From contig NZ_NKFP01000005.1 in NCBI RefSeq assembly GCF_002215035.1, forward strand, positions 1 through 54,047: DNA of 54,047 nucleotides, read 5' to 3'. Below the pieces are notes generated by a model, which did not search any database, was not told the origin of the DNA, and worked only from the letters and a program-made list of their open reading frames with translations. The position numbers and the translations under genes are program-made. This DNA comes from Leptolyngbya ohadii IS1. Its GTDB lineage: Bacteria; Cyanobacteriota; Cyanobacteriia; Elainellales; Elainellaceae. This document shows positions 8,511 to 48,646 of the stretch, one piece after another. Numbering within the stretch: the first letter of the stretch is position 1; every line of letters starts with the position of its first letter.

Positions 8511-10061
8511 ATGCTGACTGGCGAACTTCGATCGCAAATCGACGCTGTTTGGAATGCCTTCTGGTCTGGGGGAATTGCTAACCCGCTAGAGGTCATTGAG
8601 CAGATTACCTATTTGCTGTTTCTGCGGCGGCTGGACTCTCAGCATACGCTGGAGGAAAACAAAGCGAGAACCTTAAAACGTCCAATAGAGCGGCGTGTGT
8701 TTCCAGAGGGCAACGATGACCAGGGACGACCCTACGACGATTTGCGCTGGTCTCGCTTTAAGCACCTGGAAGCGCGAGAAATGTTCGAGGTGGTGAGTGG
8801 GCGGGTGTTTCCGTTTCTGCGGACGGAGTTTCTGAGCAGCTATGGCGAGGATTCGACCTATGCTCACCACATGAAGGATGCCCGCTTCACGATTCCAACC
8901 CCAGCGCTGTTGGCGAAGGTGGTGGATCTGATTGACCATCTGCCAATGGACGATCGCGACACGAAGGGCGATCTCTATGAATATATGCTGAGTAAGATTG
9001 CCAGTGCTGGACAGAATGGGCAGTTCCGCACGCCGCGCCACATCATTCAACTGATGGTAGAGATGATGGCTCCCACGCCGAAGGATGTAATTTGTGATCC
9101 GGCAAGCGGTACTTGTGGTTTTCTGGTGGCGGCTGGGGAGTATCTACGATCGCATCATCCAGAGGTATTGCGGGATGCCAAGCTGAAGCAGCACTTCCAT
9201 CATGGGATGTTTCACGGCTTTGATTTCGACGGCACAATGCTGCGGATTGGCAGTATGAATATGCTGCTGCATGGCGTGGATAACCCGGATGTGGTTTACC
9301 GCGATTCGCTGGCGCAGGATCACGCGGGGGAGGATGAGAAATATACGCTGGTGCTGGCAAATCCGCCGTTTGCGGGATCGCTGGACTACGAGAATACGGC
9401 AAAGGATCTGCTTCAGATCGTTAAAACCAAGAAGACGGAACTGCTGTTTCTGGCGTTATTTCTGCGGCTGCTGAAGCCAGGGGGACGGGCGGCGGTGATT
9501 GTGCCGGATGGAGTGCTGTTTGGCTCCTCGAAGGCGCACAAGGAACTGCGGAAGATTCTCGTTGAGGATCAAAAGCTGGATGCAGTGGTGAAGCTGCCGG
9601 GAGGAGTGTTTAAGCCCTATGCGGGGGTGTCTACGGCAATTCTGCTGTTTACCAAAACGAATTCGGGCGGGACGGAACAGGTCTGGTTTTATGAGGTAGA
9701 GGCAGATGGTTGGAGCCTGGACGATAAGCGTCAGTCGTTGCTGCCAGAGGAGAAGTTGGGAGCAGTGCCAAAACTGGAACTGGTGGACGAGGAACACGCC
9801 AAGAACAATCTGCCGGATGTGCTGGCACGGTGGGCGCAGCGGGAGGGCAGTGAACGGGATCGATCGCGCACCGCTCAGAGTTTCTGTGTGTCGAAGGCTG
9901 AGATTGCCGAGAATGGCTATGATTTGAGCCTGAATCGCTACAAGGAAGTGGTGCATGAAGAGGTGAATCATGTGCCGCCTCAGCAGATTTTAACGACGCT
10001 GGAGCAGCTAGAAACCCGGATTCAACAGGGCATGAAGGAACTGCGGGAGATGCTGGGATGA
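8511..10061 (+). CDS. hsdM: Type I restriction-modification DNA methyltransferase subunit
   Basis: The product is 516 residues, a normal HsdM length. The N-terminal helical domain (about 1-120) begins MLTGELRSQIDAVWNAFWSG, typical of HsdM_N. The N6-adenine methyltransferase domain has motif I DPASGTCGF at 196-204 and motif IV NPPF at 284-287. With HsdS it methylates adenine at a bipartite site, and with HsdR it forms the restriction complex. GGAGTAGGG lies a few bases before the ATG. The last bases, GGATGA, overlap the ATG of the next gene. In this locus the next gene is not hsdS but a small accessory gene, and diverged copies of the hsdM 3' end recur three times downstream before hsdS. Confidence 0.95.
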   Translation: MLTGELRSQIDAVWNAFWSGGIANPLEVIEQITYLLFLRRLDSQHTLEENKARTLKRPIERRVFPEGNDDQGRPYDDLRWSRFKHLEAREMFEVVSGRVFPFLRTEFLSSYGEDSTYAHHMKDARFTIPTPALLAKVVDLIDHLPMDDRDTKGDLYEYMLSKIASAGQNGQFRTPRHIIQLMVEMMAPTPKDVICDPASGTCGFLVAAGEYLRSHHPEVLRDAKLKQHFHHGMFHGFDFDGTMLRIGSMNMLLHGVDNPDVVYRDSLAQDHAGEDEKYTLVLANPPFAGSLDYENTAKDLLQIVKTKKTELLFLALFLRLLKPGGRAAVIVPDGVLFGSSKAHKELRKILVEDQKLDAVVKLPGGVFKPYAGVSTAILLFTKTNSGGTEQVWFYEVEADGWSLDDKRQSLLPEEKLGAVPKLELVDEEHAKNNLPDVLARWAQREGSERDRSRTAQSFCVSKAEIAENGYDLSLNRYKEVVHEEVNHVPPQQILTTLEQLETRIQQGMKELREMLG

Positions 10062-15693: not shown

Positions 15694-18600
15694 ATGAGCA
15701 TTCATTTCGAGTTTCTTAAAACTGAATGGTCAAAAGTCTACGAAGCGGCTGCCAAAGCTGAATCCCTCGCCTATCCTGACCCTCGCACCGCCTGTTTCTA
15801 TAGCCGCCGTGCCCTGGAACTCGCAGTTGAATGGCTATTTCAGTGCGATCGCAGCCTGGTCGAACCCTACAAAAAAGATCTCAGTGCCTTCCTGTTTGAA
15901 CCCAGCTTCAAAGCATTAGTGGGTCCTGCCCTCCACACTAAACTCGACATTATCCGCAAAAACGGCAATTACGCTGTCCACAGCAGCAGACCCATCCGAG
16001 TCGAAGACGCGATCGCCACCCTGCGCGAACTGTTTCACTTCTGCTACTGGCTCGGTCGCAACTACGGGCTAAAACCTTCTGACAAGCCCGATTCCAAAGC
16101 CACCTTTGATCCCAACCAGCTTCCTCAAACCTCCCCGATTCCACCCCAGACGATCTCGCAACTGCAAACCCTGGCAGACCAGCTTGCCGCCAAAGATGCC
16201 CAACTTGCCGATCTTGCCGCCAGCAATGCCGCTCTCGATGCCGAACTGCAAAAACTCCGTCAGTCGATCGCCCAGGCAAAAGCCGAGAACTCAGCCCAAC
16301 CCGACACCCACGACTACACCGAGGCACAGACCCGCGACTACTTCATCGACCTTTTGCTAAAAGAAGCAGGCTGGGCACTCGATCAAGCCCGTGACCGAGA
16401 ATTTCCCGTTCAGGGAATGCCCAATGAGAAAGGCAAAGGCTTTGTCGATTACGTCCTCTGGGGCGACAATGGTAAACCTTTGGCAGTGGTCGAAGCCAAA
16501 CGTACCCGCCGCGATCCTCAAGTCGGGCAGCAGCAGGCAAAACTCTACGCCGACTGTCTGGAACAGCAGTTTGGTCAGCGACCCATCATCTTCTACACCA
16601 ACGGCTATCAGCACTGGATCTGGGATGATGCCAGCTATCCACCCCGCCCCGTTCAGGGCTTTTTCAAGAAAGTCGAACTCGATCTGATAATCCAGCGGCG
16701 CACCACTCGCCGATCGCTCCTGACCACAGAGATTGATAGCGCGATCGTCGGACGCTACTACCAGACCCGCGCCATCCGTCGCATCAGCGAAGCCTTTGAG
16801 CGTCAAAACGAGCGGAAAGCCCTCGTCGTCATGGCAACTGGCGCAGGCAAAACCCGGACGGTGATCGCCCTCTGCGATCTGCTGATGCGCTGCAACTGGG
16901 TGAAGCGAGTCCTCTTCCTCGCCGATCGGGTTGCTCTGGTGAATCAAGCAGCCAATGCCTTCAAAAAACACCTGCCTGCTTCTAGTCCCGTCAATCTGGT
17001 CACTGAGAAAAACACCGAGGGGCGAGTCTACGTTTCCACCTACCCCACGATGATGGGACTGATTAACGAAGTCGGCGAGGGACAGCGCAAGTTCGGCGTA
17101 GGTCACTTCGACCTGATTGTGATCGACGAAGCACACCGATCGGTTTATCAGAAATATCGCGCCATCTTCGAGTATTTCGATGCCTTCCTGGTCGGACTCA
17201 CCGCCACCCCCAAAGACGAGATCGATCGCAACACCTACAGCCTGTTCAACCTGGAGACGGGCGTACCCACCGACGTTTACAGCCTGGAAGAGGCAGTGAG
17301 AGACGGCTTCCTCGTCCCCTCCAAATCAGTCTCCGTGCCGCTCCGCTTCCAGCGCGAGGGTATCCGCTACGATGACCTCCCTGAAGATGAGAAAGAGCAG
17401 TGGGACGAACTGGACTGGGACGAAGACGGCAACGTACCCGATCGCATCGAGGCGGCAGCCGTCAACCAGTGGTTATTTAACACCGACACCGTAGACAAGG
17501 TACTAGAGCACCTGATGCTGCGGGGTTTGAAAGTTGCCGGGGGCGATCGCCTGGGCAAGACCATCATCTTCGCCAAAAACAACGACCACGCCAAATTCAT
17601 CTACGAACGATTCAACGCTAACTATCCCCACTACAAAGGCGAGTTTGCCCGCATCATCACCCACAAAACCGAATATGCCCAAAACCTGATCGACAGCTTC
17701 TCCCAGCCCGATAAAAATCCCCACATCGCCATCTCCGTCGATATGCTCGACACCGGGATCGATGTCCCAGAAGTCGTCAATCTCGTCTTTTTCAAGCTGG
17801 TGCGCTCCAAAACCAAGTTCTGGCAAATGATCGGACGCGGCACAAGACTCCGCCCTGACCTGTTCGGACCCGATCAGCACAAGGAATTCTTCTGCTTGTT
17901 CGACTTCTGCCAAAACCTCGAATACTTCAGCCAGAATCCCGAAACCACCGAAGGCGCGATCGGCAACTCCCTCAGCAAACGCCTCTTCACCACCCGCCTG
18001 GAATTGATCGGAGAACTCGACAAGCGCATAGTTCAGCACGGAACCGCTGCCGACCTCCCTGGCACTTACGGCAAGACGACGATTAACCCTGCCGCAGACC
18101 CCAGCACCGAGACAGAAGTGCGTCAGGCGATCGTCGCTGCTTTGCAAAACGAAGTGGCTGCAATGAATCTGGACAACTTCATCGTTCGCCCCAAACGGCA
18201 GTGGGTCGAAACCTACGCCCAGCCAGAAGTGTGGAACCAGTTGCAGTCAGAACAAATTAGCGAATTAACTGATCACGTCGCAGGTTTGCCCAATGAACTC
18301 CCTGCTGACGGTGAAGATGCAAAGCGGTTTGACATGATCATGCTGAAGCTACAGCTAGCCAGGCTCCGCCCTGATCCTCAGTACATGCGATTGAGCTATC
18401 AAGTCCGCGAAATTGCCGCTGCCCTAGAGGAGCGAGACGGTGTTCCGATCGTCCAGGAGCAAATGGAACTCATCCAGGAGATTCAAACCGATGCCTGGTG
18501 GGAAGATGTCACCGTTCCCATGCTGGAGCGTGCCCGCAAGCGACTGCGATCGCTGGTTCGCCTCATTGAGAAAACACGGCGGGAGCCGCTCTACACAAAC

Positions 18601-19128
18601 TTCGAGGACAAACTGGGAACTGAAACCGAAATTGAACTCTCCAGCTTCGGCAGCGGCACCGAGTTCGATCGATTCAGGGCAAAGGCAAGGCAGTTCCTCC
18701 TGGCACATGAGGATCACATCACAATTCACAAACTCCGCTTCAACCAACCCCTGACCCCCACCGACCTGAGTGAACTGGAACGCATTCTGCTGGAATCGGG
18801 CATCGGTACACCAGAGCATCTCGAATACGCCAAAGAAACCAGCCAGGGCTTAGGGCTATTTATTCGATCGCTGGTAGGGTTAAACCGGGAAGCCGCCAAG
18901 CAAGCCTTTGGGCAGTTCCTCTCCGGCTCTGCCACGTCCGCAAACCAGATTGAATTCATCAACCTGGTCATCGACTATTTAACCCACCACGGCATCATGG
19001 AGCCTGCCTTGCTCTACGAATCACCCTTCACAGACATCTGCCCAGAAGGACCAGAAGGCGTGTTCGACTCGGAGCAGGTAAGTGGATTAATCTCAGTTCT
19101 AGAAGACATTCGTGCAGCCGCAGCTTAA
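15694..19128 (+). CDS. hsdR: Type I restriction endonuclease, motor and nuclease subunit
   Basis: The product is 1144 residues. A DUF4145-like helical domain at about 1-125 is followed by a coiled coil at 150-200. The HsdR nuclease domain at 210-330 has D252, E267 and K269 (VVEAKR) and a downstream QxxxY-like QQQAKLY. The SF2 translocase has Walker A ATGAGKT at 381-387, DEAH at 478-481, SAT-like LTATP, and later motifs TGIDVP and MIGRGTRLRP. A C-terminal HsdM/HsdS-contact region follows. It translocates DNA and cuts at a distance when the site is unmethylated. The upstream gap contains no gene. An HsdR fused to DUF4145 is known in this branch of type I systems. Confidence 0.95.
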   Translation: MSIHFEFLKTEWSKVYEAAAKAESLAYPDPRTACFYSRRALELAVEWLFQCDRSLVEPYKKDLSAFLFEPSFKALVGPALHTKLDIIRKNGNYAVHSSRPIRVEDAIATLRELFHFCYWLGRNYGLKPSDKPDSKATFDPNQLPQTSPIPPQTISQLQTLADQLAAKDAQLADLAASNAALDAELQKLRQSIAQAKAENSAQPDTHDYTEAQTRDYFIDLLLKEAGWALDQARDREFPVQGMPNEKGKGFVDYVLWGDNGKPLAVVEAKRTRRDPQVGQQQAKLYADCLEQQFGQRPIIFYTNGYQHWIWDDASYPPRPVQGFFKKVELDLIIQRRTTRRSLLTTEIDSAIVGRYYQTRAIRRISEAFERQNERKALVVMATGAGKTRTVIALCDLLMRCNWVKRVLFLADRVALVNQAANAFKKHLPASSPVNLVTEKNTEGRVYVSTYPTMMGLINEVGEGQRKFGVGHFDLIVIDEAHRSVYQKYRAIFEYFDAFLVGLTATPKDEIDRNTYSLFNLETGVPTDVYSLEEAVRDGFLVPSKSVSVPLRFQREGIRYDDLPEDEKEQWDELDWDEDGNVPDRIEAAAVNQWLFNTDTVDKVLEHLMLRGLKVAGGDRLGKTIIFAKNNDHAKFIYERFNANYPHYKGEFARIITHKTEYAQNLIDSFSQPDKNPHIAISVDMLDTGIDVPEVVNLVFFKLVRSKTKFWQMIGRGTRLRPDLFGPDQHKEFFCLFDFCQNLEYFSQNPETTEGAIGNSLSKRLFTTRLELIGELDKRIVQHGTAADLPGTYGKTTINPAADPSTETEVRQAIVAALQNEVAAMNLDNFIVRPKRQWVETYAQPEVWNQLQSEQISELTDHVAGLPNELPADGEDAKRFDMIMLKLQLARLRPDPQYMRLSYQVREIAAALEERDGVPIVQEQMELIQEIQTDAWWEDVTVPMLERARKRLRSLVRLIEKTRREPLYTNFEDKLGTETEIELSSFGSGTEFDRFRAKARQFLLAHEDHITIHKLRFNQPLTPTDLSELERILLESGIGTPEHLEYAKETSQGLGLFIRSLVGLNREAAKQAFGQFLSGSATSANQIEFINLVIDYLTHHGIMEPALLYESPFTDICPEGPEGVFDSEQVSGLISVLEDIRAAAA

Positions 19129-40905: not shown

Positions 40906-40971
40906 AGTTGTCTGAGAATAATCAGATAGAGATAATTGCACTTATCTCTATCTGATTATTCTCAGACAACT
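40906..40971. repeat. Perfect 30-bp inverted repeat with 6-nt loop
   Basis: Left arm 40906-40935 and right arm 40942-40970/71 are exact complements (core GTCTGAGAATAATCAGATAG), with loop TTGCAC. A short T-rich run (TTTTCTT) follows on the plus strand only. It lies in the 560-bp gap 40705-41264, which holds no gene. It could be a bidirectional terminator between the mobilization and signalling operons, a transfer-origin element or a small non-autonomous mobile element. Confidence 0.8.
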
Positions 40972-41048: not shown

Positions 41049-41098
41049 TTGATGCGTGTCAGAATGAGGGCAAGCATGAGAAATTTGACACGCATCAA
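41049..41098. repeat. Inverted repeat TTGATGCGTGTCA-N24-TGACACGCATCAA
   Basis: Two perfect 13-bp arms lie 167 bp beyond the 3' end of the relaxase gene. A second small hairpin, GATCTGAAA-TAG-TTTCGGATC, lies at 41159-41179. Transfer origins usually contain such inverted repeats beside the nick site, but they more often lie upstream of the relaxosome genes, so oriT is only one option. The remaining bases of 40705-41264 show nothing else. Confidence 0.55.
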
Positions 41099-41264: not shown

Positions 41265-43151
41265 TCAAAGATCCAGGTCAACCCCCTTTTTCTGCTGGTT
41301 TGTCAGTTTCTGGGAGACTTCATTCGTCTGAGGCTGTACCTTATTTTCCGCATCATGAACGGTAGTATTCACGTAAGACTCCCATACCCCAATGCCCTGC
41401 TGGTAGGCGGCTCGACGAGCAAAATATCCCTGAGCAATCGCTCCACCCACCTCATGTCTTTCTGACCCTGCAGCAAGCATTGCTTTCGCAACCTCTACGT
41501 CAGAAACGTCAGCCCCCTCCGATGCATTAGCAAGCGAATCAAAGAACTCATAGTATTTCTGTCGATAATTCCGCCGCACATCCTGAGTAAAGCTGTACCT
41601 CAACTGCTCCTGGAGCAACCGCTGTAGCTGAGCCTGGGCAAGCTCAAGGGTGTTTTGAATATACGCAACTGCTTCAGTTTGCCCTGATTCATACTCAATT
41701 GATTTCGCTTGTGGACTATTCGTGAGCATCCAGAATAAATCATCCTCTGGCTTTTCATCGTCGATCGCAGCCATAGCAATCAAAACATCCCAGTTGTTCA
41801 GGTTGTCCAACTGCTCAGAATAGAAGCAGTAATCGCTGTAAAGCTGCTCTCTTTGCTGCCTTTGCTCATTCCAGTCATCCCAATCTAACTCTTCCACGGC
41901 TCCTGCTCCCATTAAGGGAGGGTTGGGTCCAGAGATGCTTGGGCTGGCTGTAAATTGCTCAGGTTTTGTCGCAACATATCGATCGAAGCTTTCAATTGCA
42001 CGTCGGACTGCATCTGTTGTGTCTGATTCTCTTTGATTGAATTTAAGGCTCCAATCAATTCCTTCAAAGTATCCTTCAAGGGACTCGACGGCTTCTTGCT
42101 CAAGAAACTCTTCAATTCTGCAATGTAGGTCTCTAGCTTCAGCCGCATATCGAGGTTGCTGGATTCCAATTGTTGTAGCCGTTGCGGAAGCGGCTGGAGC
42201 TGCGAAATTAAGACTGCGAATTGCTGCTTCAAGATCACCTGCTCCTGGCTCATCTTTTGCACTGTCCGCGTTAGCTCGCCCATCTGCTGCAATAACTGCT
42301 GCTGGGTCAGGTTCAGTTCGGTTAGTTTCGTCACAGAGTCGGCGGATTGCTGCATCATCTCTTTCGGGTTCATAGTCAATCTCCTGATATTTCTGTAATC
42401 CTTGAAACGTATAGCCCCTGCCTAACTGAGTGCCGCTATAGTGCTGACTTCCAAACCCATAGGTAATTCCAAGTTCCTGTCCCTTCGTTAAGCCAACCCT
42501 GATTTCGACTCCCCTGGCTTGCATCTGTTCAATAAACTGCGGCATTGTTAGCTTCTGTTGACTCAGGTGCTTGACCATTGATTGCAGCACTAGGCGAATG
42601 CAGGGGTCAGGTGGCTTGTCCCGACTGCCCTCCTCGAACTGACGCTGCTGTTTCTCGAATTTACGAATCTCACCCGTCGTCGGAGCGCGATCGATCTGCT
42701 CATAGCTAGGGGTGACCGGCTCTAAGTTGTAAATTCGCTCTAGTTCACGAATTACATTCTCCGATCGCACATAGTCCTGACTATCAGAAACGGTTTGAGC
42801 ATCAGGAATTTGAATGCGGCTGACAACGAGGTGAACATGGTCGTGCTCTTCATCGGTATGGCGAACCACAATATACTGACAATTGCCGAAGCCCATTCGG
42901 TTCAAGTAATCATGGGCGATCGCCAGCCATCGATCGTCAGACTGCCGCTCATGAGCAGGAAGTGCGAGCATTGCATGGTAAACTGCGACTTCCAGCCCCG
43001 GACGTAAACGGCGAATCGCGTTGAACTCAGCCGTAAGCTCATCAACTGACTCCCCCAGCATACTGCCGCCTAGAAACTGCGCTCCCTTCTTCTCCAGAAC
43101 GTACCGAAGGCAACCCCGAAAGCTTCTCCCTTTTTCCTGCTTACCAATCAC
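41265..43151 (-). CDS. Relaxase / mobilization nuclease (PF03432 type)
   Basis: The product is 628 residues. The N-terminal relaxase domain (about 1-150) has a candidate nicking tyrosine Y17 (LRYVLEKKG) and the histidine metal site H98-T-D100-EEHD-H105-V-H107 (HTDEEHDHVHLVVSRI). Residues 150-260 are a basic DNA-contacting region. The C-terminal half is acidic and glutamine-rich, with coiled-coil segments. It nicks at oriT and pilots the strand during conjugation. Its ATG overlaps the mobC-like stop by 4 bp. A second gene is nested within it in another frame at 41912-42373. No VirB4 or mating-pore genes are visible, so the replicon is mobilizable at most. Confidence 0.9.
   Translation of the reverse strand: MIGKQEKGRSFRGCLRYVLEKKGAQFLGGSMLGESVDELTAEFNAIRRLRPGLEVAVYHAMLALPAHERQSDDRWLAIAHDYLNRMGFGNCQYIVVRHTDEEHDHVHLVVSRIQIPDAQTVSDSQDYVRSENVIRELERIYNLEPVTPSYEQIDRAPTTGEIRKFEKQQRQFEEGSRDKPPDPCIRLVLQSMVKHLSQQKLTMPQFIEQMQARGVEIRVGLTKGQELGITYGFGSQHYSGTQLGRGYTFQGLQKYQEIDYEPERDDAAIRRLCDETNRTEPDPAAVIAADGRANADSAKDEPGAGDLEAAIRSLNFAAPAASATATTIGIQQPRYAAEARDLHCRIEEFLEQEAVESLEGYFEGIDWSLKFNQRESDTTDAVRRAIESFDRYVATKPEQFTASPSISGPNPPLMGAGAVEELDWDDWNEQRQQREQLYSDYCFYSEQLDNLNNWDVLIAMAAIDDEKPEDDLFWMLTNSPQAKSIEYESGQTEAVAYIQNTLELAQAQLQRLLQEQLRYSFTQDVRRNYRQKYYEFFDSLANASEGADVSDVEVAKAMLAAGSERHEVGGAIAQGYFARRAAYQQGIGVWESYVNTTVHDAENKVQPQTNEVSQKLTNQQKKGVDLDL
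41912..42373 (-). CDS. Coiled-coil protein nested inside the relaxase gene (MobB-like arrangement)
   Basis: The ATG at 42373 is preceded by AGGAG with a 7-nt spacer, a strong ribosome site lying inside the relaxase frame. The product is 153 residues and lies wholly within the relaxase gene in a different reading frame. It is almost entirely heptad-patterned coiled coil (LTELNLTQQQLLQQMGELTR, LPQRLQQLESSNLDMRLKLE), a composition unlikely for a chance frame. In plasmid RSF1010, mobB is nested in mobA in the same manner, where it stabilises the relaxosome. No sequence similarity to MobB is claimed. The host relaxase region is also low-complexity, so shared base composition could mimic such a pattern. 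Confidence 0.55.
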   Translation of the reverse strand: MNPKEMMQQSADSVTKLTELNLTQQQLLQQMGELTRTVQKMSQEQVILKQQFAVLISQLQPLPQRLQQLESSNLDMRLKLETYIAELKSFLSKKPSSPLKDTLKELIGALNSIKENQTQQMQSDVQLKASIDMLRQNLSNLQPAQASLDPTLP

Positions 43152-43684: not shown

Positions 43685-46516
43685 CTAGTCCGGCAGGTTG
43701 CGAACTTCACCATACTGACGAATGTGGTTAATTAGCCTTCTTGCCTCACCGCCTACTGCCTCTAATTCAGCTAAGTTTCCAACAAGAATAAACAACTCCT
43801 CAGCACGACTAACCACCGTGTTGAGCAAGTTTGGAGAGTTGCTGATAAGCCCTAAGCTATTTCGATCGCATAAACAGGGAGAAAAGAGAATGACGGGTTT
43901 TTCTTCACCCTGAAACTGATAGACAGTGTTGACATCAGACCAAGGGAACTTCTGCGATCGAGATTGTAATTGTTGACGCAGAGCAGCGGCCTGGTGGAAA
44001 AACAAGCTCATAATGCCAATCTGGTTGTTTTTCTCCTGAGCAGTGAGTTTATATCCGGCAGCTAGAAGGTGCTGCACGAGAATATCGATCGCCCTAACCT
44101 CCCCTGGGTTTGTGTTCTGATCCTGACGACCGATTACATTAAACGCCAGTAGATTCGGACCCAGGGCAGAAGGGCGCGGCTGAACTAAACAATTGAGTCC
44201 GCCTGGATACTTAGGACTAGAAAAAGCGGCGATCGCAGGCACAGACCGATAGTGATTCCGCAGCACAATTGGGTTTCCAAGACTACCCTCCTCCCCAGTA
44301 GCTCCGGCTGCTCGGTGGTAAGCAGTCGCAGTGTTTTTCGCTGTTGGAGAGTATTTGGAATAATCTAAACCCTGATCAAGGAAGTAGGATTGCCGATAAG
44401 CTGCAACGGCATCAACCCCTAAGCTTAGAATTGGAAAGAGTTGATTGGGGTCACCAACTACTGCCGCCTGCTGAGAACGCACTAAGAGCGGAAACGCTTG
44501 GTGGAGGGCAGTGGCAGCCGCCTCGTCAATGATTGCCAATTGGATTAAATCAGCCTCTATTGTCGGAAATAGGTTAAACAGGGATTGAAGGCTTGAGCTA
44601 AAGACGGGAAAGACCAGACTGACCAGACGATAAACCGATTTTGAGTTGAGCTTCATTTCAAGACGGGCTTCTTCGTCTCCCAACAAAGCATCACAATAGG
44701 TTCTTAATGCACTCAGAACTTCTGATTTGTGGCGTAGGGATTCGTGCTGCAAAAGTGCCCAGGCAGCATGAAAAAGCTGCACCTGGCGATCGTGGTCTTC
44801 CTGATAAAAGCGAGAGTAAATGTCTTGTTGAGGATAGTTTTGTAACCGCGCTTGCAGCGAATCTCGATTCGCATACAGTTTATCGATCTGTTGCCGTGTT
44901 TCTTGCAGCGCCTGCCGCCGTTTCTGCTGCTGCTGCCACCGCTTAGACTGAGCAAGCAGTTGAGCAACCTGTTCGCGCCTCTCTGCAACCTGGGCAGGAT
45001 TGATCGGCAGTCGAAAGGGAAAGAGGGTTGTCTGTACATGGGTCCAGGCAGGACGAACGCGTCGCTCAAATTGCCTGATCACCATACTTTCAGTAGTGGG
45101 AAACAACAAATCAGAAGCTTTCTTTAACAGAGAGTTACTCGATTGAGAGAATTTTTCCCAGACTTTATCAAGTTCCTCCTGAATCTGTTCATACGCTTCA
45201 AGCGGGAATTGCGAAAAGTCCCGTTCAATTTCTTCAGCAGCGTCTAATGATTGTAAGGCTGCGATTTCCTCCAGAGTGGTAATATTACTATTGATTTCAG
45301 ATAGAGAGGCTTCATCAATAGTTTGCTGCTGGCGCAGGGCTGGCTCCTGATCAAATCTTTGCTGTAGCTCAGCTTCAAAAGCTAAAAACTTCTGCTTGAT
45401 CTCTTCATGCTCATCACAGTCATACTCAGCTTCCTCAAGTCGAGTGATCGCCTGCCGCAATTGAGGCACGGTCTGCCCCCGAATAATGGCAACCTTTCCG
45501 CCCTTCAGGTAAAAAAGATCATCAGGAAGTCTACTTCTGATTCGTGATTCAAAATTGTCGATCGCACTGTTGTTTGTGCTGGCAAAAACGCAAAGGCAGC
45601 TTTGATCAGGGTCTCCATGAGCCAGGGCTTTTGCTCGCTCGTAAATTGGTTGAGTGACAAGGTGAAGGCTCAATTCTGTTTTTCCAGAACCAGGACCACC
45701 TAAAACAGGGGTCAGAGGGTTTTCTTGAGCGTGCTTGATTGCCTCTGCCTGATACTCGTCTGGAACAGTCCCAGGGAAAGCAGCCCAAAACTGGACTTCG
45801 TGCCTTGACCGCTGGGGCTTCCCAAAAAGGTACTGATGGGCAGGGCGGTCTTCACTCATCCACTCACAGCCATTTTGTTGCTCGGCAACCTGTTGTTCAA
45901 GCTCCTGTATTTCCTTCCTTAGGTTGTAATTGAAGGGATTGAGGTTTGCCCGAACGATATAAGCTTCTCGTTTTGTCCGGTAGGGAGAAGGAGCCGTATC
46001 AACTTGATTCAGGAAATTTTGTACCGAGTCGAAGGGGCGATCGAAAGCATCAGCCAAAAATCGAAGAAGCCCCTCGCCTGTGAGCAGAGCATCGGCTTTC
46101 TGCTCATTCATTCCTCTCAATTCGATCAGGTTTGCCCGGACTGGATAAATATCAAATTCCAGTAAATCCCAGCCTGCTTCACGGTAAGCTCCTCGAAAGA
46201 TCCTTGATATGTCGATAGTGAACAGCGGACGATATTTAGATACCTGTTTGCCATTCTGAGTAGCAACACGATAGATATTGGGAAAAGCCAGAGCAATCGA
46301 ATGATGATCAGTGTCCGTATTTTCCTGCCGAATGCGACTCAGGCGTTTAACTTGATTAAACAGGCTGGCATCTCGCAACACCAACCTGTTACCAGATATT
46401 TGAACTCCCTCGTCAAAGACTTTCTGAAAATCGCCCTGTCCTTTGTCTATTTCAGAACTACTCAAGTCTTCGAGGCGAAGGTACTCCCGGCAGGCTTGAA
46501 GAAAAGCAGAAATCAT
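43685..46516 (-). CDS. Superfamily 1 (Upf1/DNA2-like) helicase
   Basis: The ATG at 46516 gives 943 residues; a TTG at 46543 is an alternative. Residues 1-230 form an uncharacterised N-terminal domain. Motif I is LGGPGSGKTE with the P-loop at 273-280. A long coiled-coil insertion follows (QQQQKRRQALQETRQQIDKL) with motif II IIDEAAA (D664, E665). Motif III VVGDPNQLFP and later VYQFQGEEKPVI and NVVSRAEELFILVG complete the SF1B set. Such helicases unwind DNA or RNA 5'-3'. It lies between parB and mobC on the same strand and could serve plasmid replication, transfer or defence; no partner nuclease domain is seen. Confidence 0.85.
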   Translation of the reverse strand: MISAFLQACREYLRLEDLSSSEIDKGQGDFQKVFDEGVQISGNRLVLRDASLFNQVKRLSRIRQENTDTDHHSIALAFPNIYRVATQNGKQVSKYRPLFTIDISRIFRGAYREAGWDLLEFDIYPVRANLIELRGMNEQKADALLTGEGLLRFLADAFDRPFDSVQNFLNQVDTAPSPYRTKREAYIVRANLNPFNYNLRKEIQELEQQVAEQQNGCEWMSEDRPAHQYLFGKPQRSRHEVQFWAAFPGTVPDEYQAEAIKHAQENPLTPVLGGPGSGKTELSLHLVTQPIYERAKALAHGDPDQSCLCVFASTNNSAIDNFESRIRSRLPDDLFYLKGGKVAIIRGQTVPQLRQAITRLEEAEYDCDEHEEIKQKFLAFEAELQQRFDQEPALRQQQTIDEASLSEINSNITTLEEIAALQSLDAAEEIERDFSQFPLEAYEQIQEELDKVWEKFSQSSNSLLKKASDLLFPTTESMVIRQFERRVRPAWTHVQTTLFPFRLPINPAQVAERREQVAQLLAQSKRWQQQQKRRQALQETRQQIDKLYANRDSLQARLQNYPQQDIYSRFYQEDHDRQVQLFHAAWALLQHESLRHKSEVLSALRTYCDALLGDEEARLEMKLNSKSVYRLVSLVFPVFSSSLQSLFNLFPTIEADLIQLAIIDEAAATALHQAFPLLVRSQQAAVVGDPNQLFPILSLGVDAVAAYRQSYFLDQGLDYSKYSPTAKNTATAYHRAAGATGEEGSLGNPIVLRNHYRSVPAIAAFSSPKYPGGLNCLVQPRPSALGPNLLAFNVIGRQDQNTNPGEVRAIDILVQHLLAAGYKLTAQEKNNQIGIMSLFFHQAAALRQQLQSRSQKFPWSDVNTVYQFQGEEKPVILFSPCLCDRNSLGLISNSPNLLNTVVSRAEELFILVGNLAELEAVGGEARRLINHIRQYGEVRNLPD

Positions 46517-46635
46517 TTCCACGTACACTTCACCCGACTGCAATAGTACTACCGTTTGCGTTTTTCTTAATCTAACGCAGACAAAATATAGTGCAGCCGA
46601 ACAAGAAGGTTAATTTTTAGCTTTCCTACAAACCT

Positions 46636-47670
46636 CTAATCTTTAGTGCCAGCTTCGCCCAACAGTTCATTTAGTTCAGTGAGTAGCTTCTCAAGCTGTT
46701 TCTGTTTGTCAGGCATATCCCAAACCTTCAGCTTCTTCGCCTTTTTATAAGTTGATTCAAATTGCTCTTTGAGGGGGATCTGCTTCGACACTGGCTTGAG
46801 ACGCTTTAAATGTTCTTTGATCTGTTGAAGCGACCAGTTCTCTACAATCGCTCTCTCCAAAACAGCAGTTCGTGCTTCTTGCTCCTTAACCTGAGCAATA
46901 GCTTTCGCTTTTGTGTACTCTAGCTTGCCAGAGCGAACCAATGCCAAAACGTCATCCGGCAACCTAAGTAAGGGTAAGCGATTTTTTACAAACGATCGCC
47001 AAGTCATCAAGCCCAAGTCGGTAAAAAGAGCCTCCACTGCTTGTAAATCTGAATTAGTCATAACGTTATGGTTAGCCTGGGCGTCCTCCGAGTTAGCCAT
47101 AACATTATGGTTATTCTGAAAATCTTCTGCATTAGCCATAACGTTATGGCTAGCTGCTACCTTTGGCTGACTCGCTCCATTGTTCAGACGATACAGCAGA
47201 GGGGGAACATCCTTAATATCTAGGTCAAGCCTGAATGCCAGCAGTTGCAGGATTCCTTCAGTCTCATCAACTGGGTTCAGGTTTTCCCGGAACAGGTTTT
47301 CAGTCAGGGCGATTTCAAAAGCTTCGACTTCATCCAATTCGCGCTCGACGATCGGGACTTCATCTAGCCCAATTTCCCGCGCAACCCTGAGGCGACGTTC
47401 TCCAGCAACTAACTCAAAATATCCTGCTTCAATTGGACGCACGACTAACGGCTGTAGAATTCCGTGCTGACGAATTGACGTAACGAGTTGCTGATATGCC
47501 TGAGGGTCAAAATAGCGTCTGGGTTGTCTTTCTGGCAGTCGAATTTGATTCAGTGCAATCGTCCTCTGTTCAGACAAAGCCTCAGCAGTCCCGTAGATGT
47601 CATCTAGCGGACTGAGTGAAGATGGTCTTCTAATCTGCGCTCCGTAGGATTTATCTCGCTTAGAACTCAC
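46636..47670 (-). CDS. parB: ParB partition protein with internal 13-residue repeats
   Basis: The product is 344 residues, starting in a 4-bp overlap with the parA stop. The ParB N-terminal domain has RQPRRYFDP, HGILQPLVVRP, the GERRLRVAREIG box and TENLFRENLNPVDE. A helix-turn-helix region and a C-terminal basic/dimer part (EHLKRLKPVSKQIP) follow. Between them residues 174-207 contain three repeats of SHNVMANxEDxQxN type. At the DNA level each repeat contains a palindrome around CATAACGTTATG at exact 39-bp spacing, described separately. It binds a centromere (parS) and spreads along DNA. Typical plasmid ParBs lack this insert. Confidence 0.92.
   Translation of the reverse strand: MSSKRDKSYGAQIRRPSSLSPLDDIYGTAEALSEQRTIALNQIRLPERQPRRYFDPQAYQQLVTSIRQHGILQPLVVRPIEAGYFELVAGERRLRVAREIGLDEVPIVERELDEVEAFEIALTENLFRENLNPVDETEGILQLLAFRLDLDIKDVPPLLYRLNNGASQPKVAASHNVMANAEDFQNNHNVMANSEDAQANHNVMTNSDLQAVEALFTDLGLMTWRSFVKNRLPLLRLPDDVLALVRSGKLEYTKAKAIAQVKEQEARTAVLERAIVENWSLQQIKEHLKRLKPVSKQIPLKEQFESTYKKAKKLKVWDMPDKQKQLEKLLTELNELLGEAGTKD
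47059..47152. repeat. Three palindromes inside parB, 39 bp apart
   Basis: Cores lie at 47059-47070 (CATAACGTTATG), 47098-47109 (CATAACATTATG, one mismatch) and 47137-47148 (CATAACGTTATG). The third extends to a perfect 20-bp palindrome, TAGCCATAACGTTATGGCTA, at 47133-47152. They encode the repeated HNVM peptide of ParB. They may be centromere (parS-like) sites, ParB autoregulatory sites, or inserted palindromic repeats. Confidence 0.75.
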
Positions 47671-48425
47671 GACAGCTTCTCCATCGCATCCGCCAACTGC
47701 TCAAGCGAATTCAGAGCACTCTTCTGCTTGGGATCGTAGAGAGCTAAAGGTAACCTTGCTTCAGCAGCATTTGGGAAGTTAGTAGTGTTGGGAATAGGAG
47801 GAAAAATGGGGGCAATGTCAGCAATCTGCTCCTGAATCGCTCCTAAGCACCGGATGTTTTGGGTTTTACGGGCATCGTGACGGGTAGGCACAAAACCAGC
47901 AATTTTGAGTTTGCGATTCGCTTTGCTTCGGACTCTCGCGATCGTTTCCAGCACCTTTTCAGTACCGTTGAACGCCTTGAATTCGGTTTCGATCGGAACA
48001 AGAATGTGCGTCGCTGCTACTAGGGAGAGATAGCTGAGAAGCCCCAGGCTCGGAGGACAATCGATCAAAATGAAATCGTACTCGTCTTGCACCGGTTCAA
48101 TCGCCGACTTCAAGCGGAATTCTCGTAGGTCTTCATTCACCAGCTGAATTTCAGCAGCACTAAGGTCGGTATTCGTGGGAGAAAAGTCCATGTCCAAGAC
48201 ATTTTCCAGGATGTGAAGCGGTTTCTCCTTGACCAGAACCTCAAACAAGCTCATCTCGATTTCGTGCGGATCAAGCCCCATAAACGTGGTCAGAGAAGAC
48301 TGGGGATCCATGTCTATGAGCAGAACTTTGTGGTTACGCCTTGCCAAGTGATATCCCAAATTTTGCGTGACAGTTGTTTTTGCCACACCTCCAGCCTGGT
48401 TAAAAACTGCAATAATTCGTGCCAT
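47667..48425 (-). CDS. parA: ParA partition ATPase
   Basis: The ATG at 48425 has AGGGAA 5-9 nt upstream and gives 252 residues; the longer frame to 48635 is upstream read-through. The deviant Walker A of the ParA/MinD family is FNQAGGVAKTTVTQNLG; Walker A' is VLLIDMDPQSSLTTF; Walker B is FILIDCPPSLG. No N-terminal helix-turn-helix is present, so it is a small (type Ib-like) ParA. With ParB it spreads plasmid copies to daughter cells. Its stop overlaps the parB start (ATGA). The upstream gap holds one copy of the 26-bp repeat. Confidence 0.95.
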   Translation of the reverse strand: MARIIAVFNQAGGVAKTTVTQNLGYHLARRNHKVLLIDMDPQSSLTTFMGLDPHEIEMSLFEVLVKEKPLHILENVLDMDFSPTNTDLSAAEIQLVNEDLREFRLKSAIEPVQDEYDFILIDCPPSLGLLSYLSLVAATHILVPIETEFKAFNGTEKVLETIARVRSKANRKLKIAGFVPTRHDARKTQNIRCLGAIQEQIADIAPIFPPIPNTTNFPNAAEARLPLALYDPKQKSALNSLEQLADAMEKLS

Positions 48426-48565
48426 TTGTTCCCTAGATGCTAAATAGCCTAATTGATCGAATAACGTGAAAACGAATGAATTGCCTTGGTCATGCGCTAA
48501 AAATTTTTTGTGCTTTTTGCCTTTACTGCTACAGAGTGCAGCTACTATATCCCTGCAAATCTGTA

Positions 48566-48591
48566 AAACAAAAACATGGCTTGCTTTCAGG
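48566..48591. repeat. 26-bp repeat, copy upstream of parA
   Basis: It is identical to 43575-43600. It lies 141 bp upstream of the parA ATG and 56 bp beyond the rep stop. The surrounding 48426-48646 gap contains no gene; the rest shows nothing else. Confidence 0.75.
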
Positions 48592-48646
48592 GAGTCGTAA
48601 CGGAAGATTCTAATATTTTGTGGCAGGAGCAGCAAAGTTTAATTTC

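Follow-up and report, generated by a model that had tools for sequence, protein, structure and literature searches.

The relaxase gene of Leptolyngbya ohadii IS1 contains a second open reading frame (ORF), shifted by +1, that the two most closely related relaxase genes also keep open and conserve. We consider it likely that this ORF is a genuine gene, overprinted on the stretch of the relaxase behind its conserved domain, and that its product is a MobB/MbeB-type accessory mobilization protein. The window analyzed here is a stretch of 54,047 nucleotides that forms part of a 65,858-base contig; its relevant features are collected in Table 1.

The nested frame and its genomic setting

By ORF reading, the nested frame comprises 153 codons and a stop; it begins with an ATG at position 42373, 259 codons into the relaxase, and lies wholly within the relaxase frame. 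The original prediction of a second gene nested in the relaxase in another frame holds in position, +1 frame and conservation, with the specification that the strand is minus.

Table 1. Features of the relaxase region of the window
Feature	Position	Strand	Basis or remark
Relaxase, 628 aa, GTG start	41265..43151	-	PF03432, E 5.9e-31
Relaxase domain layout	nuclease domain codons 17-143; overlap zone codon 260 to about 412	-	
Nested gene (MobB/MbeB-type candidate), 153 aa	41912..42373	-	+1 ORF, conservation, helical model
AGGAG, Shine-Dalgarno-like	42381..42385	-	spacer ATTGACT, 7 bases, to the nested ATG
Relaxase Tyr260 codon TAT	42372..42374	-	last two bases of TAT and the next G form the nested ATG
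LQPLPQRLQQLE segment of the nested protein	42164..42199	-	close match in the nested proteins of NIES-3755, LEGE 13415, FACHB-1515 and G487
Small MobC/NikA/MbpA-like accessory gene, 134 aa	43148..43552	-	weak matches below curated cut-offs
Superfamily I helicase-like gene	43685..46543	-	family match
Partition genes parB (46636-47670) and parA (47667-48635)	46636..48635	-	

The relaxase and the nested protein differ in predicted order across the overlap. The confidence of the relaxase model, built on an alignment of 12 sequences of which few reach the overlap zone, mostly lies between 75 and 96 for residues 11-270 but averages about 40 for residues 281-410. AlphaFold2 predicts the nested protein (alignment of 3) as an all-helical chain, with helices at residues 3-59, 61-91 and 97-146 and a mean pLDDT of 79; the best 19-residue hydropathy is 0.62, that is, the protein has no membrane helix. 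The drop in relaxase confidence together with the helical model of the nested protein places the end of the conserved relaxase core at about the start of the nested gene. In these models, the overlap looks like a poorly ordered stretch of the relaxase, yet it would form the body of the nested protein.

The MobC-like gene, which overlaps the relaxase start by 4 bases, the helicase-like gene, parB and parA all lie upstream of the relaxase in the same direction, and plasmid2 of NIES-3755 is arranged alike (ParA-type gene, parB, helicase, small gene, relaxase). Two inverted repeats lie on the downstream side of the relaxase gene. One is 33 nt long, loop-free and 97% complementary (40906-40971); the other, immediately behind the gene, is a perfect repeat of 13 nt, TTGATGCGTGTCA, whose arms are 24 nt apart (41049-41098), and is a possible oriT or regulatory site. 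The same contig carries Type I restriction-modification genes of the HsdM and HsdR families (8511-10061 and 15694-19128). A second relaxase with a 792-codon frame is encoded on another contig of this genome (L144, G000:C7:82900-86800) and has no long +1 ORF at the nested start site. A coupling-protein gene lies about 14 kb from it on contig C7, and the presence of both genes there makes mobilization by a resident system conceivable; a search of the genome with one VirB4-type family gave no match.

Conservation of the hidden frame

Two properties of the ORF were rejected as evidence for a gene. The longest +1 run in the window relaxase spans 169 codons, compared with a mean of 112 in synonymous shuffles, and 112 of 2000 shuffles contained a run as long, so that ORF length alone is only weak evidence; this null errs on the conservative side, since the overlap may have helped to shape the relaxase protein. 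The original prediction also pointed to AGGAG at ideal spacing. The motif is present, 7 bases from the ATG, but fails as evidence, being equally strong in relatives that lack the gene. Among 134 surveyed relaxases, 32 have an ATG at the aligned site, 14 of them followed by a long ORF (104 to 369 codons) and 18 by a frame of 8 to 45 codons. The median Shine-Dalgarno energies of these two groups (-4.75 and -6.45 kcal/mol, respectively) do not differ (p 0.51, a rough value because about 8 of the 18 short-frame relaxases are near-copies of one compact family). A strong ribosome site accompanies the conserved relaxase motif, with or without a nested gene. Both results would suit an ORF that is no gene at all and was left open by the codon bias and the helix-rich C-terminus of the relaxase, a reading that becomes highly improbable once the hidden frame is compared between relaxases.

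In this pairwise comparison, both relaxase proteins were held fixed, synonymous codons were resampled, and the similarity of the +1 translations was compared with the resulting null. Between the window and NIES-3755, the +1 translations of the overlap are 49% identical (null 18%), compared with 32% for the relaxase frame (z 11.4), without a single stop; the control regions before and after the overlap gave z values of 1.2, -0.4 and 1.7. Similar values were obtained for the window and LEGE 13415 (nested 46%, relaxase 30%, z 11.9), FACHB-1515 and G487 (44% and 34%, z 9.6), G571 and G582 (37% and 25%, z 9.9), and G573 and G518 (84% and 67%, z 19.9). For G573 and the second relaxase of G541 (G541:C2), the two parts of a split frame yielded 90% against 67% and 89% against 65% (z 19.2 and 12.2). 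NIES-3755 and LEGE 13415 are 80% identical in the nested and 74% in the relaxase frame (z 13.3), with control values of 4.8 to 6.9 that are raised because the two are close kin. Hence, in all seven pairs of this first set, the hidden frame is more identical than the relaxase frame over the same codons, with z values between 9.6 and 19.9; in the closest pairs, it is the relaxase frame that is the less conserved within the overlap.

Silent codons, counted as codon identity among amino acids identical in the relaxase frame, point in the same direction: between the window and NIES-3755, the same codon is used in 38/45 cases inside the overlap, compared with 35/89 and 33/84 before it and 34/58 after it. 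The +2 frame in the same overlap also reached a z of 5.7, as expected if the bases are frozen, but contains stops in 27 compared columns. An RNA or DNA element as the cause of the conservation would favor neither +1 amino acid similarity nor the absence of stops. The checks proposed with the original prediction, namely, whether the frame stays open in close homologs and whether synonymous sites are constrained, both came out in its favor, given that the frame is unbroken in both nearest relatives and that silent codons are most frozen within the overlap. We regard this conservation, far beyond chance, as decisive; these sequence comparisons show that selection acts on the amino acids of the nested protein.

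Among six further pairs, the hidden frame was the more identical in only two (L047-L048 and the Crinalium pair) and the relaxase frame in four; the z values were 5.9 for the two Bacteroidota relaxases L047 and L048, 6.6 for G449 and G436, and 9.1 for the two Crinalium plasmids. Serratia and Aeromonas, which represent the known MobB type, gave a z of 2.6 and showed no silent freeze (14/46 versus 38/94). The window compared with G487 and with FACHB-1515 gave z values of 3.1 and 0.6; the nested starts in these pairs are about 50 codons apart, so that an alignment in the relaxase frame need not bring the nested frames into register.

Distribution, start site and origin

Homologs were obtained by plasmid search and by reading the +1 frame of relaxase homologs. 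In 24 of the 134 distinct relaxases, a +1 ORF of at least 100 codons lies close to the site, and in two, such an ORF occurs in the +2 frame; nested or overlapping +1 genes were accepted in 19 of the 134, which leaves 115 with no accepted +1 ORF. These counts come from a biased survey and give no estimate of prevalence: three of the five rows of seed alignment A1 carry a nested gene, and 40 regions were hand-picked from one match list, mostly with long open frames. The accepted set consists of the window, NIES-3755, LEGE 13415, FACHB-1515, G487, G573, G518, G541:C2, G571, G582:C360, G449, G436:C3, G436:C2, two Crinalium plasmids, Serratia, Aeromonas and two Bacteroidota. Helical character was modeled for the window protein and judged by eye for the other accepted proteins, L047 and L048 excepted. 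The nested label was withheld from L069, L091, L094 and L084, in which the ORF lies mostly past the end of a short relaxase, and from L125, which by eye is not helical.

Individual members of the survey differ in the state of the frame. The two Bacteroidota relaxases (L047, Marinilabilia; L048, Plebeiobacterium) are about 400 aa long and have +1 ORFs of 126 and 123 codons, respectively, at the same site, conserved (z 5.9) and without a ribosome site. The frames in G436:C2 (L155) and G449 (L153) are 369 and 291 codons long and end in membrane-helix-like stretches; the +1 run of G449 was matched by none of 2000 shuffles. In G541:C2 (L128), a stop divides the frame into two parts (191 and 93 codons), which still share 89-90% identity with the G573 copy; the sister copies L118 and L119 are open for 309 codons. 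Remains of the nested frame were sought in 13 relatives without a long ORF and were clear only in G412 (L024, E 2e-14), being absent or at chance level in the others. L024 (G412:C116) is a degraded relic, with a shortened relaxase and the first 43 codons of a FACHB-type nested protein still recognizable, in a segment that sits out of the +1 frame.

Searches with the window's nested protein in 386 genomes of the phylum and 36 of the family found no stand-alone copy, only the protein itself and coiled-coil noise. A five-row LQPLP-type profile likewise detected none in 388 genomes of the class (the samples overlap); its five strong matches, each inside a relaxase gene, were the profile's own rows and hence are not independent evidence of spread, and there were, in addition, one degraded copy and two chance-level matches. 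Because the profile strongly finds only its own rows, the LQPLP-type subtype appears to be rare. The FACHB-1515 nested protein had no matches in the plasmid collection. Viral contigs contained no match to the window relaxase or to the nested profile, and alignment A1 matched one distant relaxase in them.

The lack of a relaxase-free copy in these three genome samples bears on whether the nested gene could be real but perform another job, such as repression of the mobilization operon, exclusion, or regulation of relaxase folding or of the partition genes. The protein exceeds no family cut-off and lacks a membrane helix, a helical character says nothing about function, and ColE1 nests two different genes, mbeB and mbeD, within one relaxase frame, all of which leaves room for another function. 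Nevertheless, we consider it rather unlikely, given also that the frame is the same and the site nearly the same as in known transfer helpers.

The start of the nested gene is tied to a relaxase motif. Tyr260 is invariant in the 12 relaxases of alignment A4 and variable across all 134 surveyed. Fourteen of the 19 accepted genes start exactly at the codon aligned with it (a tyrosine in 12 cases, a histidine in one and an asparagine in one), and in the remaining five the start lies elsewhere in the vicinity or the alignment is faulty at this point. The motif GLQKYxG[IV]xY tends to encode a purine-rich stretch followed by TAT-G, which contains an ATG in the +1 frame. Nested genes without clear mutual homology start at this spot in several relaxase branches, the nested start in ColE1 lies over a similar motif, and that in RSF1010 is at a similar place. 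The constant place and frame of nested mobilization genes suggest that the relaxase motif itself supplies the start site, so that the birth of overlapping genes becomes open to direct testing; this shared start site is the most interesting part of the finding. We tentatively propose, as a possibility we hold with some reserve, that the motif Gly-Leu-Gln-Lys-x-x-Gly-Ile/Val-x-Tyr, with its built-in ribosome site and ATG, has served as a nursery for repeated births of overprinted genes. A single ancient origin of the nested genes, followed by many losses and fast divergence, is also conceivable. When 95 relaxase cores are placed on a tree, the nested label requires at least 8 changes (17.6 with shuffled labels), 4 of them forced by well-supported branches, and the window relaxase groups with those of NIES-3755 and LEGE 13415 at 100. 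This tree was built by a quick method with SH-aLRT support only, contains several long branches, and uses 95 of the 134 relaxases, leaving out rows shorter than 250 aa and all but three of rows L051-L097.

Compatible with a MobB/MbeB-type gene is an origin in which the overprint is the C-terminal extension of the relaxase rather than the nested gene: a short ancestral relaxase, once its stop was lost, would have been extended across a downstream gene with which its end already overlapped. Several of the related relaxases are compact, at about 312 aa, G436:C3 looks like an intermediate, with a 203-codon +1 ORF that starts near the site and passes the relaxase stop, and the nested frame is the better conserved one in the closest pairs. 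However, by eye, the ORFs downstream of compact relaxases are unlike the nested protein, and the relaxase of the window extends about 215 codons past the end of the nested gene. On balance, this order of events is possible but not the one we would favor.

Comparison with known mobilization systems

Overprinted mobilization genes are a known kind: excerpts of PMC2200642 and PMC4655240 describe them in RSF1010 and in Aeromonas plasmids, respectively, and in ColE1, mbeB and mbeD are seen to be such genes from the annotation and the frames. None of the open-licence PubMed Central matches listed (titles and abstract starts) concerned overprinted mobilization genes in cyanobacterial relaxases; nested genes are not mentioned in the excerpts of PMC8683028 and PMC9791958, and MobB in the latter names a relaxase. 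The claim that such genes had been undescribed in this cyanobacterial group is consistent with the literature found, although the kind itself is well known; what appears to be new, because absent from the matches listed, is the occurrence in a cyanobacterial branch, the soluble form and the repeated use of one start site. Overprinted mobilization genes would thereby extend to cyanobacterial and, possibly, Bacteroidota relaxases, in which annotation seems to miss them: the gene tables of NIES-3755 and Crinalium, known to be incomplete, list only the relaxase at the overlap. Cyanobacterial plasmid mobilization gains a probable extra component.

The nested protein would be translated from the relaxase mRNA through its own start, so that relaxase and helper would be made together, in cis. 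As reported for RSF1010 MobB, the helical protein may bind the relaxase or the relaxosome and, by analogy with MobB, could help to present the relaxase to the coupling protein and the type IV channel; having no membrane helix, it would not serve as a membrane anchor but as a soluble adaptor or oligomerizer. The transport signals of the R1162 relaxase/primase reportedly require MobB, according to the title of a 2007 article by Parker and Meyer. We infer the MobB function from position, frame and helical character and not from sequence membership. For RSF1010, an excerpt of PMC2200642 places mobB within mobA/repB in a different frame and describes MobA, MobB and MobC as essential for mobilization; an excerpt of PMC4655240, citing Meyer 2011, reports that MobB is needed for efficient mobilization and interacts with the relaxase-primase.

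Like IncQ MobB, the window ORF is nested in a relaxase gene in another frame, namely, +1, and starts just after the relaxase domain, at about codon 250. It does not match the Mobilization_B profile (PF17511) at E up to 1 and lacks the C-terminal membrane helix, and for these two reasons is not filed as MobB; a C-terminal membrane domain is reported for RSF1010 MobB in an excerpt of PMC4655240. Membrane-helix-like stretches (hydropathy 1.87 to 2.82) are present in 8 of the 17 nested proteins scanned. Like ColE1 mbeB, the ORF is nested in the +1 frame of a MOBP relaxase, where the MOBP typing is that of the plasmid of the NIES-3755 homolog and not of the window; the MbeB_N domain is not matched at E up to 1. 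For the window protein, no Pfam or NCBIfam family scored above the cut-off, and matches of nested proteins to SMC, Rad50 and the like were rejected as coiled-coil noise. There is no detectable sequence match between RSF1010 MobB and the window protein. A tentative chain of protein matches runs from the window, by a weak link to the membrane-type protein of G436:C3, through Serratia MobB to RSF1010 MobB (E 4.5e-4, 5.2e-4 and 1.3e-6), to be read against coiled coils that reach 1.5e-3 by chance across whole genomes.

The direct homologs are the nested ORFs of NIES-3755 plasmid2 and Pseudanabaenaceae LEGE 13415, which are about 48-49 and 46% identical to the window protein, share its start MNPKEMMQ and likewise have no membrane helix, whereas their relaxases are longer (about 880 to 907 aa, compared with 628). 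Established members of the MobB type come close in architecture. MobB of a Serratia marcescens plasmid (NZ_OQ821182.1; annotated as IncQ-type, Mobilization_B E 4.3e-13) and a CDS of Aeromonas sobria pTM18-1, for which the annotation places the start further upstream, are nested in the +1 frame, with an ATG at the aligned tyrosine; their host relaxases can be aligned with that of the window. Unlike the window protein, both are gammaproteobacterial and have a membrane helix, and the Serratia relaxase frame continues into a RepB primase.

The geometry of RSF1010 was read on a copy in a Salmonella plasmid typed IncQ1, located with a MobA query sequence. The comparison with mobB inside mobA, drawn in the original prediction, is apt: mobB of RSF1010/R1162 lies in the same +1 frame and starts 249 codons into mobA, compared with 259 for the window ORF; it likewise has a ribosome site (GGGAGG) and a mobC gene nearby, on the other strand. 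The host relaxase, by contrast, is typed MOBQ, not MOBP. In ColE1, typed MOBP, two genes rather than one, mbeB (PF04837) and mbeD (PF04899), are nested in the +1 frame of mbeA; according to which start is taken, mbeB begins some 230 to 245 codons into the mbeA frame, with AAAGGAG-CATTTT-ATG over the relaxase sequence LKGAFYEQ. The window protein has no sequence match to the ColE1 families. Beneath the nested starts, all three relaxases display a similar motif: QEYREAIDHERN in RSF1010, LKGAFYEQS in ColE1 and LQKYQEIDYEPERD in the window.
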